This document shows positions 26,437-48,133 of a stretch of DNA of 64,000 bases, piece by piece. The notes beneath the pieces are model-generated. The model was given only the letters and a program-made list of their open reading frames with translations. It ran no database searches and had not been told where the DNA came from. Source of the stretch: an uncultured Maribacter sp. (GTDB lineage Bacteria; Bacteroidota; Bacteroidia; Flavobacteriales; Flavobacteriaceae); assembly GCF_947500985.1 (NCBI RefSeq), contig NZ_CANMTX010000005.1:248001-312000 (forward strand). The letters run 5' to 3'. The position numbers were made by a program, and so were the translations under genes. Positions within the stretch are counted from its first letter, which is position 1; every line of letters begins with the position of its first letter.

Positions 26437-28272
26437 TTACTTCTTCTTAGAATCAGCTTCCATTTTGTCTTTCAACGCTTGTAGTGCATCGTTAGCATCA
26501 CCTAAAGTAGGCTTAGCTTCATCTGCGCTAGCTGCTTGTCTTTTGACAGCTGCTTTTACATTACGTTGCTCTTCTTCACGGAAAATAGCAGTATGACTAG
26601 CTACTACACGTTTGAAGTCTTTATTGAACTCAATAATCTTGAATTCAGCTTCATCGCCTTTACTTAGTTTCTTACCATCTTCTTTCTCTAAATGACGTTG
26701 AGGAATGAATGCAGTAATATCTTCGTTAAATTCAATTGTTGCACCTTTATCAACTACATCAGAAATGGTTGCTGTATGAACTGTACCCAATGCGAATTCA
26801 GTTTCATATTTATCCCAAGGGTTTTCAGTAGTTTGTTTATGACCTAAGCTTAACTTACGACCATCAACATCTAATTCTAACACCTCAACCTCTAAAGTAT
26901 CACCAACATTGGTAAACTCAGATGGATGCTTGATTTTCTTAGTCCAAGAAAGATCAGAGATATAAATTAAACCATCAATACCTTCTTCTAGCTCAACAAA
27001 AACACCAAAGTTTGTAAAGTTTCTTACAATACCTTTATGCTTAGAACCTACAGGGTATTTAGTAGTAATATCAGTCCAAGGATCTGGAGTCAATTGCTTG
27101 ATACCAAGAGACATTTTACGATCTTCACGATCTAATGTCAATACAACTGCTTCAACCTCATCACCAACTTTTACGAAATCTTGTGCAGAACGCAAGTGCG
27201 TAGACCAAGACATTTCAGAAACGTGGATAAGACCTTCAACACCTTCAACAACTTCGATGAACGCGCCGTAATCAGCTATAACAACTACTTTACCTTTTAC
27301 TTTATCACCAATCTTAATTTCATCAGATAAAGCTTCCCAAGGGTGCTTCTCTAATTGCTTAAGACCTAATTGTATTCTAGATTTGTTTTCGTCAAAATCA
27401 AGAATTACAACATTTAATTTCTGGTCCAGTTCAACAACCTCGTTCGGGTGGTTGATTCTGCTCCAAGAAAGGTCAGTAATGTGAACTAAACCATCAACAC
27501 CACCAAGATCAATAAACACACCGTAAGAAGTAATGTTTTTAACAACACCTTCTAATACTTGTCCTTTTTCTAATTGGCTAATGATTTCTTTCTTCTGTTC
27601 TTCAATATCAGCTTCAATAAGGGCTTTATGAGAAACAACAACGTTTTTAAATTCGTGGTTGATTTTCACAACCTTAAATTCCATTGTTTTGTTAACATAC
27701 TGATCGTAATCACGAATAGGCTTAACATCGATTTGAGAACCTGGTAAGAAAGCTTCAATACCAAATACGTCAACGATCATACCACCTTTAGTTCTGCACT
27801 TAACAAAACCACTAACGATTTCTTCTTTGTCATGAGCCGCGTTAACACGATCCCAAGCCATAATAGTTCTCGCCTTTCTGTGAGATAATACTAGTTGACC
27901 ACTTTTATCCTCACGAATATCAATCAATACTTCTACCTTGTCACCAACTTTTAAACCTGGGTTGTAACGAAATTCGTTTAACGAAATTACACCTTCAGAT
28001 TTTGCGTTGATATCAATAATAGCTTCTCTATCTGTGATATAAACTACCGTACCTTCTACTACTTCCTCATCGGCAGTATCTACAAAGTTTTCGGCAACTA
28101 ATTCTTCAAACTCCTTTAATTTAGAATCATCAACACGCTCAATTCCTTGCTCGTATTTTTCCCAGTTAAAGTTTTCTAAGAATTCTTTTGGATCTTGCTG
28201 TGGAGTTTCAACAGCTTGTTGTGTTGCTTCGGTAGTAACTTCTACCTCTGCGTTTGTTTTTTCTTCAGCCAT
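26437..28272 (-). CDS. rpsA: 30S ribosomal protein S1
   Basis: Binds mRNA on the small ribosomal subunit. The 611-residue protein holds six S1 (OB-fold) domains after an acidic N-terminal extension, and ends with a Lys-rich tail. The last four show the typical motif as VHITDLSW, IHVSEMSW, IYISDLSW and the degenerate FIPQRHLE. Length is slightly more than E. coli S1 because of the N and C tails, which is normal for the phylum. Upstream is a promoter with good -33/-7 match and a 5' leader of about 120 bases; downstream are three tandem terminators. Confidence 0.97.
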   Translation of the reverse strand: MAEEKTNAEVEVTTEATQQAVETPQQDPKEFLENFNWEKYEQGIERVDDSKLKEFEELVAENFVDTADEEVVEGTVVYITDREAIIDINAKSEGVISLNEFRYNPGLKVGDKVEVLIDIREDKSGQLVLSHRKARTIMAWDRVNAAHDKEEIVSGFVKCRTKGGMIVDVFGIEAFLPGSQIDVKPIRDYDQYVNKTMEFKVVKINHEFKNVVVSHKALIEADIEEQKKEIISQLEKGQVLEGVVKNITSYGVFIDLGGVDGLVHITDLSWSRINHPNEVVELDQKLNVVILDFDENKSRIQLGLKQLEKHPWEALSDEIKIGDKVKGKVVVIADYGAFIEVVEGVEGLIHVSEMSWSTHLRSAQDFVKVGDEVEAVVLTLDREDRKMSLGIKQLTPDPWTDITTKYPVGSKHKGIVRNFTNFGVFVELEEGIDGLIYISDLSWTKKIKHPSEFTNVGDTLEVEVLELDVDGRKLSLGHKQTTENPWDKYETEFALGTVHTATISDVVDKGATIEFNEDITAFIPQRHLEKEDGKKLSKGDEAEFKIIEFNKDFKRVVASHTAIFREEEQRNVKAAVKRQAASADEAKPTLGDANDALQALKDKMEADSKKK

Positions 28273-28537: not shown

Positions 28538-28894
28538 ATGAGTGTTAAGGCAAAATATCAAGGTCTTTTAGATCTTGGTGAGCAATTAGGTATAAAAGAC
28601 GGCAATGTGACTGTTGAAGGTGATGTTCTTAAAATAAAAGGACAAGCAAAAACGCCTTATGAAAAAGACCTTATGTGGGATAAAATTAAGCAACTAGGTG
28701 GTGAAAGCCCTTCTGACATCAAAGCTAATATCTCAGTTGAAGATGATTCTGTATATCACAGACACGTTGTTAAAGGTGGTGAGTCTTTAAGTAAAATAGC
28801 AAAGCACTACTACGGTGATGCTATGCAATACAAAGCTATATTTGAAGCGAACACTGGTATCTTGAAAAGCCCAGATGTTATTCATCCAGATTAA
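28538..28894 (+). CDS. LysM (Kbp/YgaU-like) protein with premature stop
   Basis: A 118-residue homologue of the E. coli potassium-binding protein Kbp. Residues 1-67 resemble a BON domain and residues about 73-118 a LysM domain (YHRHVVKGGESLSKIAKHYYGD). The frame stops after SPDVIHPD, but the same frame continues past the TAA at 28892-28894 with V-L-V-I-P-N-K and a TAG at 28916-28918. Kbp-type LysM domains end in a 'PxQ-x-L-x-IP' strand, so the TAA stands where CAA (Gln) is expected: a C-to-T nonsense change removing the last eight residues. Function of the shortened protein is uncertain. A terminator lies at 28941. Confidence 0.88.
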   Translation: MSVKAKYQGLLDLGEQLGIKDGNVTVEGDVLKIKGQAKTPYEKDLMWDKIKQLGGESPSDIKANISVEDDSVYHRHVVKGGESLSKIAKHYYGDAMQYKAIFEANTGILKSPDVIHPD

Positions 28895-28940
28895 GTATTG
28901 GTTATACCAAACAAATAGTATTGATACTATATAAATAAAA

Positions 28941-28970
28941 AGAGGTTAGCAGTGCTAACCTCTTTTTTTA
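28941..28970. terminator. Bidirectional terminator between LysM gene and cmk
   Basis: AGAGGTTAGC and GCTAACCTCT form a perfect 10-base-pair stem around a three-base loop, with seven T after it and A-runs before it. It would end the LysM transcript on the plus strand and overlaps the end of cmk on the minus strand. Confidence 0.85.
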
Positions 28971-29666
28971 TGCTTGATGTTTTTCAATTACCCGAAGCGA
29001 ATGTTCATATATTCTTTGAAACTGATCCTCTAGTCCTAAATCACTATTATCAAACTCAATAGCATCGTCTGCTCTCTTTAAAGGTGAAATTGCACGGTTA
29101 CTATCTATATAATCTCGCTTTTCAACATTTTCAAGAATATCTGCATAAACCACATCTTCTCCCCTATCCAACAATTCTTTATATCTTCTTACCGCACGTT
29201 TCTCTGGTGAAGCCGTCATAAAAATTTTAAGATCAGCATCAGGAAATACTACAGTACCGATATCTCTACCGTCCATAACAAGACCTTTATCAATACCCAT
29301 TGCTTGTTGCATGGCTACTAATTTTTCTCTAACAGCTGCTATAACCGAAACCTGACTCACATTTTTTGACACAGGCATAGTTCTTATTTCCTTCTCTACA
29401 TTTTCACCATTCAAATACATTTCGGCATACCCTAAATCTGAATTAAAAATAAAATTCAATTCAATATCACCTAATGATTTCACCAATGCATCTTCATCAA
29501 CTTCACCCGCTTCTACAAAACCTGACTTCATAGCAAATAGAGTAACTGCGCGATACATTGCACCTGTATCTACATAAACATATTCTAGCTTTTTAGCCAA
29601 CTGCTTAGCTAAAGTGCTTTTTCCCGTAGAAGAGAATCCGTCAATTGCAATAGTGATTTTTTTCAT
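28968..29666 (-). CDS. cmk: Cytidylate kinase
   Basis: Phosphorylates CMP and dCMP with ATP. A 232-residue P-loop kinase: Walker A DGFSSTGKSTLAK (9-21; usually GPxGxGKS, here with Ser-Ser-Thr), VDTGAMYRAVT (32-42), the long CMP-binding insert with MDGRDIGTVVFPDAD, and the lid-like MTASPEKRAVRRYKEL. All family marks are present. It lies 28 bases downstream of lon, in the same direction, and shares a terminator region with the LysM gene. Confidence 0.95.
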   Translation of the reverse strand: MKKITIAIDGFSSTGKSTLAKQLAKKLEYVYVDTGAMYRAVTLFAMKSGFVEAGEVDEDALVKSLGDIELNFIFNSDLGYAEMYLNGENVEKEIRTMPVSKNVSQVSVIAAVREKLVAMQQAMGIDKGLVMDGRDIGTVVFPDADLKIFMTASPEKRAVRRYKELLDRGEDVVYADILENVEKRDYIDSNRAISPLKRADDAIEFDNSDLGLEDQFQRIYEHSLRVIEKHQA

Positions 29667-46717: not shown

Positions 46718-47620
46718 ATGAATTGGAAACATGCGTTAAAGGATTACACGGTATATCTTAAGCTTGAACGAGGGTTATCAAAAAACTCTATACAGAGCTA
46801 TACTATGGATATCGAGAAATTGATGTCTTTTCTTGATGCCAATACCATTAACACAAGCCCTATAATTATAGACAAAAACACTGTTCAACAATTCATATAT
46901 GAAATTGCCAAAGTTGTAAACCCTCGATCCCAAGCTCGAATTATATCGGGACTCAAAAGTTTTTTTAACTATTTAATTTTTGAAGATTACCGAAAAGATA
47001 ATCCGCTGGATTTAATAGAATCGCCAAAAATCGGGCGCAAATTACCAGATACACTTTCTGAAAACGAAATAGACAAATTAATCGGCGCTATTGATTTAAG
47101 CTCAGCCGAAGGAGAACGCAACAGGGCTATGCTTGAAACTTTATATGGTTGCGGACTAAGAGTTTCTGAACTAATCGGATTAAAAATATCTGATCTGTTT
47201 TTTGAGGAAGATTTTATAAAGGTAACCGGCAAAGGAGACAAACAACGCTTTGTACCCATTAGCCCTGTAAACAAGAAATACATTGATATTTATAGAAATG
47301 AAATTAGAGTTCATTTAAAAATTCAAGAAGGTTTTCAAGACATTCTATTTCTTAACCGACGTGGAAAGCAACTTACCAGAGCCATGATTTTCACTATCGT
47401 AAAAAACTTAGCGGTAATAATAGGGTTGCAGAAAAGTATAAGTCCGCATACCTTCAGACATTCTTTCGCTACTCACCTTCTTGAAAATGGTGCAGATTTA
47501 CGATCTATACAACTAATGCTTGGACACGAGAGTATTACTACAACAGAAATTTACATGCACGTAGATAGGTCTCACTTAGCTGAAGTTATGAATACGTATC
47601 ACCCTAGAAAAGATCATTAA
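46718..47620 (+). CDS. xerD: Tyrosine recombinase XerD/XerC-like
   Basis: A 300-residue tyrosine recombinase that resolves chromosome dimers at dif. N-terminal core-binding domain (about 5-85; LERGLSKNSIQSYTMDIEKL) and C-terminal catalytic domain with Arg in GCGLRVSEL, Lys region GKGDKQRFVP, HTFRHSFATHLL, LGHES and the nucleophile Tyr in TTTEIYMHV. Its stop overlaps the stop of a frameshifted beta-barrel gene on the other strand. XerC versus XerD is not decided from the sequence; the location near aroQ is common in flavobacteria. No phage neighbours. Confidence 0.93.
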   Translation: MNWKHALKDYTVYLKLERGLSKNSIQSYTMDIEKLMSFLDANTINTSPIIIDKNTVQQFIYEIAKVVNPRSQARIISGLKSFFNYLIFEDYRKDNPLDLIESPKIGRKLPDTLSENEIDKLIGAIDLSSAEGERNRAMLETLYGCGLRVSELIGLKISDLFFEEDFIKVTGKGDKQRFVPISPVNKKYIDIYRNEIRVHLKIQEGFQDILFLNRRGKQLTRAMIFTIVKNLAVIIGLQKSISPHTFRHSFATHLLENGADLRSIQLMLGHESITTTEIYMHVDRSHLAEVMNTYHPRKDH

Positions 47621-48133
47621 AATTTCCACTTACTACCAATAGTATATACCGAAGACATAGTTACTTGGGTTTCTCCAAAAGCACCGATGGTCGATTTATT
47701 TAATTGAACATTACTTTTTAATTCAATCATAAAATTTTCGCTAACGTCATAACCAGTACCTGCCACAAAACCAAGACGATATGGCACTTCCAACAGTTCT
47801 TTTTTTTTCAGTTGCTACTTCAACTTCTAGACCTGACAACAAATATAATTTCTCATTTAAATAAAACTTACCCAATAAACTAGATCTGGATCTTTCGCTC
47901 AAAATATAGGTGTCATAAAATCCTTGAAGCTCTAATTGTATTCCACTGGTAATTCCATACTGTACCATAAAAAATTTATGTACATCACCAAATGCAGAAA
48001 CAGGGTATGCATGCCCTGAAATTGATATTCCAGTTAATGATGAAGGCAGATTTGTTACCGGCTCGTCTTCTGTAGTTTGACCTTTCGACACTATTACAAA
48101 CAAGAACAGAAAACTAAGTACAAGTATTTTCAT
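47617..48133 (-). pseudogene. Outer-membrane protein gene with +1 frameshift in A9 tract
   Basis: The frame from the ATG at 48133 gives a signal peptide (MKILVLSFLFLFVIVSKGQ) and beta strands, and stops at 128 residues with an unrelated tail after VATEKKRTVG. On the minus strand there is a run of nine A (plus-strand T 47800-47808). With eight A, the frame continues as E-L-L-E-V-P-Y-R-L-G-F-V-A-G-T-G-Y-D-V and on to 'VYTIGSKWKF', a classic barrel C terminus with a final Phe, ending at 47617-47619. So the full gene is about 171 codons, and one inserted A breaks it. It may be a true mutation, a phase-variable switch or a sequencing error. Confidence 0.85.

Follow-up and report, generated by a model that had tools for sequence, protein, structure and literature searches.

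The question raised by this locus is whether an in-frame TAA that cuts a conserved small gene short is a recent inactivating mutation, the natural end of a protein that still works, a flaw in the sequence, or a codon that is read through. The window, that is, the whole 64-kb stretch of DNA analysed here, comes from a member of Maribacter, a marine genus of Flavobacteriaceae. Within it an open reading frame starts at ATG 28538 on the + strand and reaches the TAA at 28892-28894 after 118 codons; past the stop the same frame reads GTA TTG GTT ATA CCA AAC AAA (VLVIPNK) and then TAG at 28916-28918, just as the initial annotation had described it. The features of the locus are as follows.

26437..28272, - strand: upstream neighbour, which we take to be the gene for ribosomal protein S1 (rpsA)
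28538..28894, + strand: truncated open reading frame of 118 amino acids, with a BON-like N-terminal half and an incomplete LysM domain (LysM profile positions 1-36 of 43, Pfam)
28763..28888, + strand: remaining LysM domain, residues 76-117
28892..28894, + strand: premature stop TAA at codon 119, which is CAA or CAG in 35/35 other Maribacter genomes
28895..28918, + strand: orphaned tail VLVIPNK with the presumed former stop TAG, encoding what is predicted to be the last LysM strand in relatives
28937..28967, both strands: terminator-like hairpin between the BON-LysM gene and cmk (two found, one per strand)
28968..29666, - strand: downstream neighbour, presumably the gene for cytidylate kinase (cmk)

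The order rpsA (-), BON-LysM gene (+), cmk (-) recurs in 74 of 80 named loci from relatives, and in the other six one neighbour was undetected, three of these loci being short. The hairpin at 28937-28967 has 14 pairs and T-rich tails and scores as terminator-like on both strands (two such hairpins found, where shuffled sequences average 0.3); it could serve as the transcription end for the BON-LysM gene. An open-access literature search (BON-LysM, Bacteroidetes, Maribacter) found no paper on this gene.

In order to place the stop we compared the gene with its counterparts in the genus, where it is present in 36/36 Maribacter genomes, with the 3' end read in every one of them (the window's own, 29 and 6 more). 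Codon 119 encodes Gln, as CAA or CAG, in all 35 other genomes and is TAA in the window genome only; in each of the eight nearest relatives it is CAA, in keeping with the earlier proposal that a one-base change from CAA had created the stop. The shorter form, for which the initial annotation had pointed to close relatives as the place to look, is fixed nowhere among the 35 other Maribacter genomes, none of whose 3' ends terminates at this TAA, and premature stops are likewise absent from the 80 named full-length loci (0/80), a set that partly overlaps that of the genus. A relative's 126-residue protein can be aligned straight through the stop, over residues 1-126, at 98% identity and with a single TAA inside, and the seven codons 3' of the TAA reproduce the C-termini of relatives residue for residue; the tail is therefore no chance open frame. 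Across the family 218 orthologue alignments extend to query residue 125 or 126, the 3' ends having been read for the fetched loci and the others judged by how far the alignment reaches. Gln at codon 119 is an invariant column in an alignment of 43 relatives (79-98% identity among members), and a single G at this codon in the codon comparison is probably due to a paralogue, locus L166, within the set.

Relative to the eight nearest relatives the window gene has private codons at positions 24, 45 and 66 in addition to the stop at 119, and each of the three gives a residue that is also present in relatives; identity to the three nearest relatives is 95.1-95.6% over the 3.35 kb around the gene. 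Since the stop is confined to the window genome among the 36 of the genus, the change arose on its own branch, and since neither the remaining codons nor the orphaned tail show any apparent decay in comparison with the eight nearest relatives, the stop looks recent.

The only Pfam family above its cut-off in this protein is LysM (PF01476), which scores 25.5 bits in the 118-residue product (gathering cut-off 20.9) and 38.4 bits, over profile positions 1-43, in L061, a full-length relative. The protein of L061 is the same as the query of the family search and matches the window gene read through at 98% identity. No match to the BON family was found in Pfam at E values up to 1, either in the window protein or in L061. 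The predicted structure of L061 nevertheless places a BON-like fold (helix-strand-strand-helix-strand) ahead of the LysM domain, with helices at residues 8-17 and 40-54 and strands at 20-27, 30-37 and 61-67. Escherichia coli Kbp (YgaU; PDB 7pvc) is alike in that it carries BON and then LysM in one small protein; it is the top sequence match among solved structures (E 6.3e-9) and the second by fold (Foldseek, E 6.9e-8, 123 columns). Kbp structures occupy fold places one to four (7vcm and 8zex are sensor fusions of Kbp), but their TM-scores across the two domains together reach just 0.41-0.43; for 7pvc (TM-score 0.43 and rmsd 9.9 across both) the match is one of individual domains. The Kbp equivalog model (NF008399, PRK11198) has a cut-off of 134 bits, which is missed by the 118-residue protein (61.6), by the genome read across the stop (69.8) and by L061 (75.5). 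The window gene also differs from Kbp in being cut by a stop. The label 'Kbp-like' given earlier is thus apt as a statement of resemblance and fails as one of equivalence: judged by these scores, the BON-LysM protein resembles Kbp but is no Kbp equivalog.

The N-terminus of the window protein is also some 20-30 residues shorter than that of Kbp, with residue 17 pairing with 7pvc chain position 48 and residue 16 with model position 39. L061 aligns to positions 39 to 147 of the 149 in the Kbp model, and the alignments begin at 7pvc 48 or model 38-39, leaving the N-terminal Kbp segment that supplies K+ ligands without a counterpart. The K+ ion in GINKO1 is described as held by V154, K155, A157, G222, I224 and I227, and the site in E. 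coli Kbp as lying within BON and stabilised by LysM (PMC9481166). Equivalents of V154, K155 and A157 would precede the first Met of the window protein, although the exact offset is uncertain; with these first three ligands falling ahead of the start, K+ binding is therefore not to be assumed. A further comparison is with the short, rpsA-cmk-linked BON-LysM family of Flavobacteriaceae, which is the same gene in the same place but whose members end eight residues later with a complete LysM strand. Longer Kbp-like paralogues in the family, in which BON likewise precedes LysM along most of the query, are separate genes elsewhere, mostly of ~160-180 codons and mostly at 31-44% identity. One of these (locus L166, G372:C1:128263-128595) has an in-frame TAG just before its own LysM domain.

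What the stop removes can be read from the L061 model (mean pLDDT 78.9, pTM 0.56), in which the LysM half consists of strand 72-77, helices 84-92 and 95-104, and strand 120-124. The last of these predicted elements lies entirely beyond codon 118, and the LysM profile match, which covers positions 1-43 in L061, stops at position 36 of 43 in the window protein, leaving the domain without its closing second strand; the earlier statement that the last LysM strand is lost thus agrees with both. Residues Q119, L121, I123 and P124 are invariant in the 43 aligned relatives. In the usual LysM fold the second strand pairs with the first, and by analogy strand 120-124 would be the second LysM strand, partner of strand 72-77. 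A model of the 118-residue protein, built with 42 of the same relatives trimmed to the same length, has a mean pLDDT of 61.8 (vs 78.9 for L061). In blocks of ten residues from residue 71 on, pLDDT falls to 44-59 from the 79-85 of L061, and the BON blocks drop as well, but less (69-82 to 64-73). The two models differ in their first sequence (L061 and the window protein, respectively), and AlphaFold confidence is no measurement of stability; read in this way, the comparison suggests that the LysM domain of the 118-residue protein is poorly folded.

We have also asked how widely the gene is kept. Of 397 family genomes drawn evenly, 290 have some match (262/330 among genomes at least 90% complete), and a short orthologue, defined by a best match with E of 1.2e-42 or better, occurs in 218, a number made up of 150 listed genomes and 68 whose similarly strong match lay outside that list and which were therefore searched again. 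The orthologue is missing from the other 179, some of which are incomplete genomes, with weaker matches only in 72 and none in 107. Since 179 of 397 family genomes are without an orthologue and three other genomes carry premature stops, the BON-LysM gene is evidently dispensable within the family. A second copy was considered as the reason why the loss is tolerated and rejected, no Kbp-like gene besides this one having been found in the window genome at the thresholds used.

The three other stops lie at different places in the gene. In genome G081 (locus L141) a TAA stands at query codon 20, which is Lys in Maribacter and Gln in G106 and L153, and in G106 (L142/L149) a TAA stands at query codon 40, which is Pro in Maribacter and Gln in G081. 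The third, a TGA in G435 (L153), falls in the LysM half at a position that is Tyr in relatives. No single base change turns the Tyr codon TAT into TGA, and this stop, in an assembly of ~140 contigs, may be an error. With the window gene included, four of 270 distinct orthologues have a premature stop, and 3/269 without it. Among the 150 best-scoring matches in the same family draw to each of two control genes the corresponding numbers are 0/150 for MsrB and 0/150 for a glycine transporter, where nine matches were flagged that all proved to be natural ends at query codons 200-202. The difference between 3/269 and 0/300 control rows is not significant (Fisher one-sided p = 0.105). The genus of G435, which added five genomes, was searched only because G081 showed a stop, and leaving it out gives 2/264 and p = 0.219. 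The excess of premature stops is suggestive at most; the stop count also mixes assemblies of all kinds, and the two control genes sample the better matches. Recurrent loss was rejected as a firm claim on these p values, and we regard it as doubtful that nonsense mutations repeatedly switch the gene off in separate Flavobacteriaceae lineages because its loss is favoured, for instance during isolation or culture.

Taken together, we consider it likely that the TAA is a recent C-to-T nonsense mutation and that this allele of a dispensable gene has probably lost its function. Somewhere along the lineage of this Maribacter species or strain, a single C-to-T change would have made the codon for Gln-119 a TAA, and translation would stop eight residues early. 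With residues 120-124 gone, strand 72-77 would lack its partner in the LysM fold; the domain is therefore most likely to fold poorly, which would leave the protein unstable or inactive. The loss of fold, the loss of function and the cell's tolerance of that loss are all inferred.

Unlikely, in our view, is a working 118-residue protein, in which the BON half performs the function and the impaired LysM domain either still folds or is unneeded. On such an account the codons before the stop should stay conserved on the branch of the window genome, as they do, and it too predicts the lack of decay; the LysM match of 25.5 bits remains above the Pfam cut-off of 20.9, and the K+ site of E. coli Kbp lies in BON, with LysM in a stabilising role (PMC9481166). 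Recency alone, however, accounts for the lack of decay. The invariance of residues 119, 121, 123 and 124 in 43 relatives points to strong selection on the strand elsewhere, none of the 35 other Maribacter genomes has the short form, the 218 family alignments all reach residue 125 or 126, and the predicted structure loses confidence over LysM.

An error of sequencing or assembly, with C as the true base at 28892, is a little less likely still. An error would explain why nothing else in the gene looks damaged and why the stop is known from one assembly only. We paired the mechanical open reading frames of the 64-kb window with those of a near relative, G004, retaining pairs of at least 100 residues in the relative and >60% identity and comparing them at their C-terminal ends only. 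Two of 64 pairs are broken in the window, the BON-LysM gene and the frame at 47620-48133; the filter also listed a third pair, in which solely the last few residues differ. With 2/64 pairs broken the assembly is not riddled with errors, and the idea of a generally poor assembly finds no support in these pairs. A completeness of 99.99% and a contamination of 0.12% for the genome also argue against an error, as does the nature of the change, since sequencing errors are not typically substitutions outside repeats. The second disruption, in contrast, is at a type of site where sequencing also errs and so lends the error account some weight: on the - strand at 47620-48133, a frame of 171 residues in G004 is split in the window, where the reading frame shifts at nine consecutive A. 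This frame has no Pfam match in its first part. Of the 25 other Maribacter genomes that match it, 21 have the frame free of stops from end to end or nearly so, and in G015, G005, G013 and G034 it is interrupted, split or partial; 10 of 36 Maribacter genomes have no match.

That the TAA is read through to give some full-length protein is highly improbable: the tail remains in frame and conserved, but recency explains this, TAA is normally an efficient stop, and none of the 35 Maribacter relatives has TAA at codon 119. Of the three options offered by the initial annotation, then, tolerated loss fits best, an assembly error is possible and nothing specific speaks for readthrough.

On the reading of a recent nonsense allele that we prefer, the event is of an ordinary kind, a gene loss that seems genuine but rather commonplace. 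Because the gene is conserved, mostly between rpsA and cmk, and yet missing or broken in many members of the family, its benefit is probably conditional. The locus would thus amount to one recent nonsense allele, and a useful natural experiment on the need of the BON-LysM protein for its closing strand.
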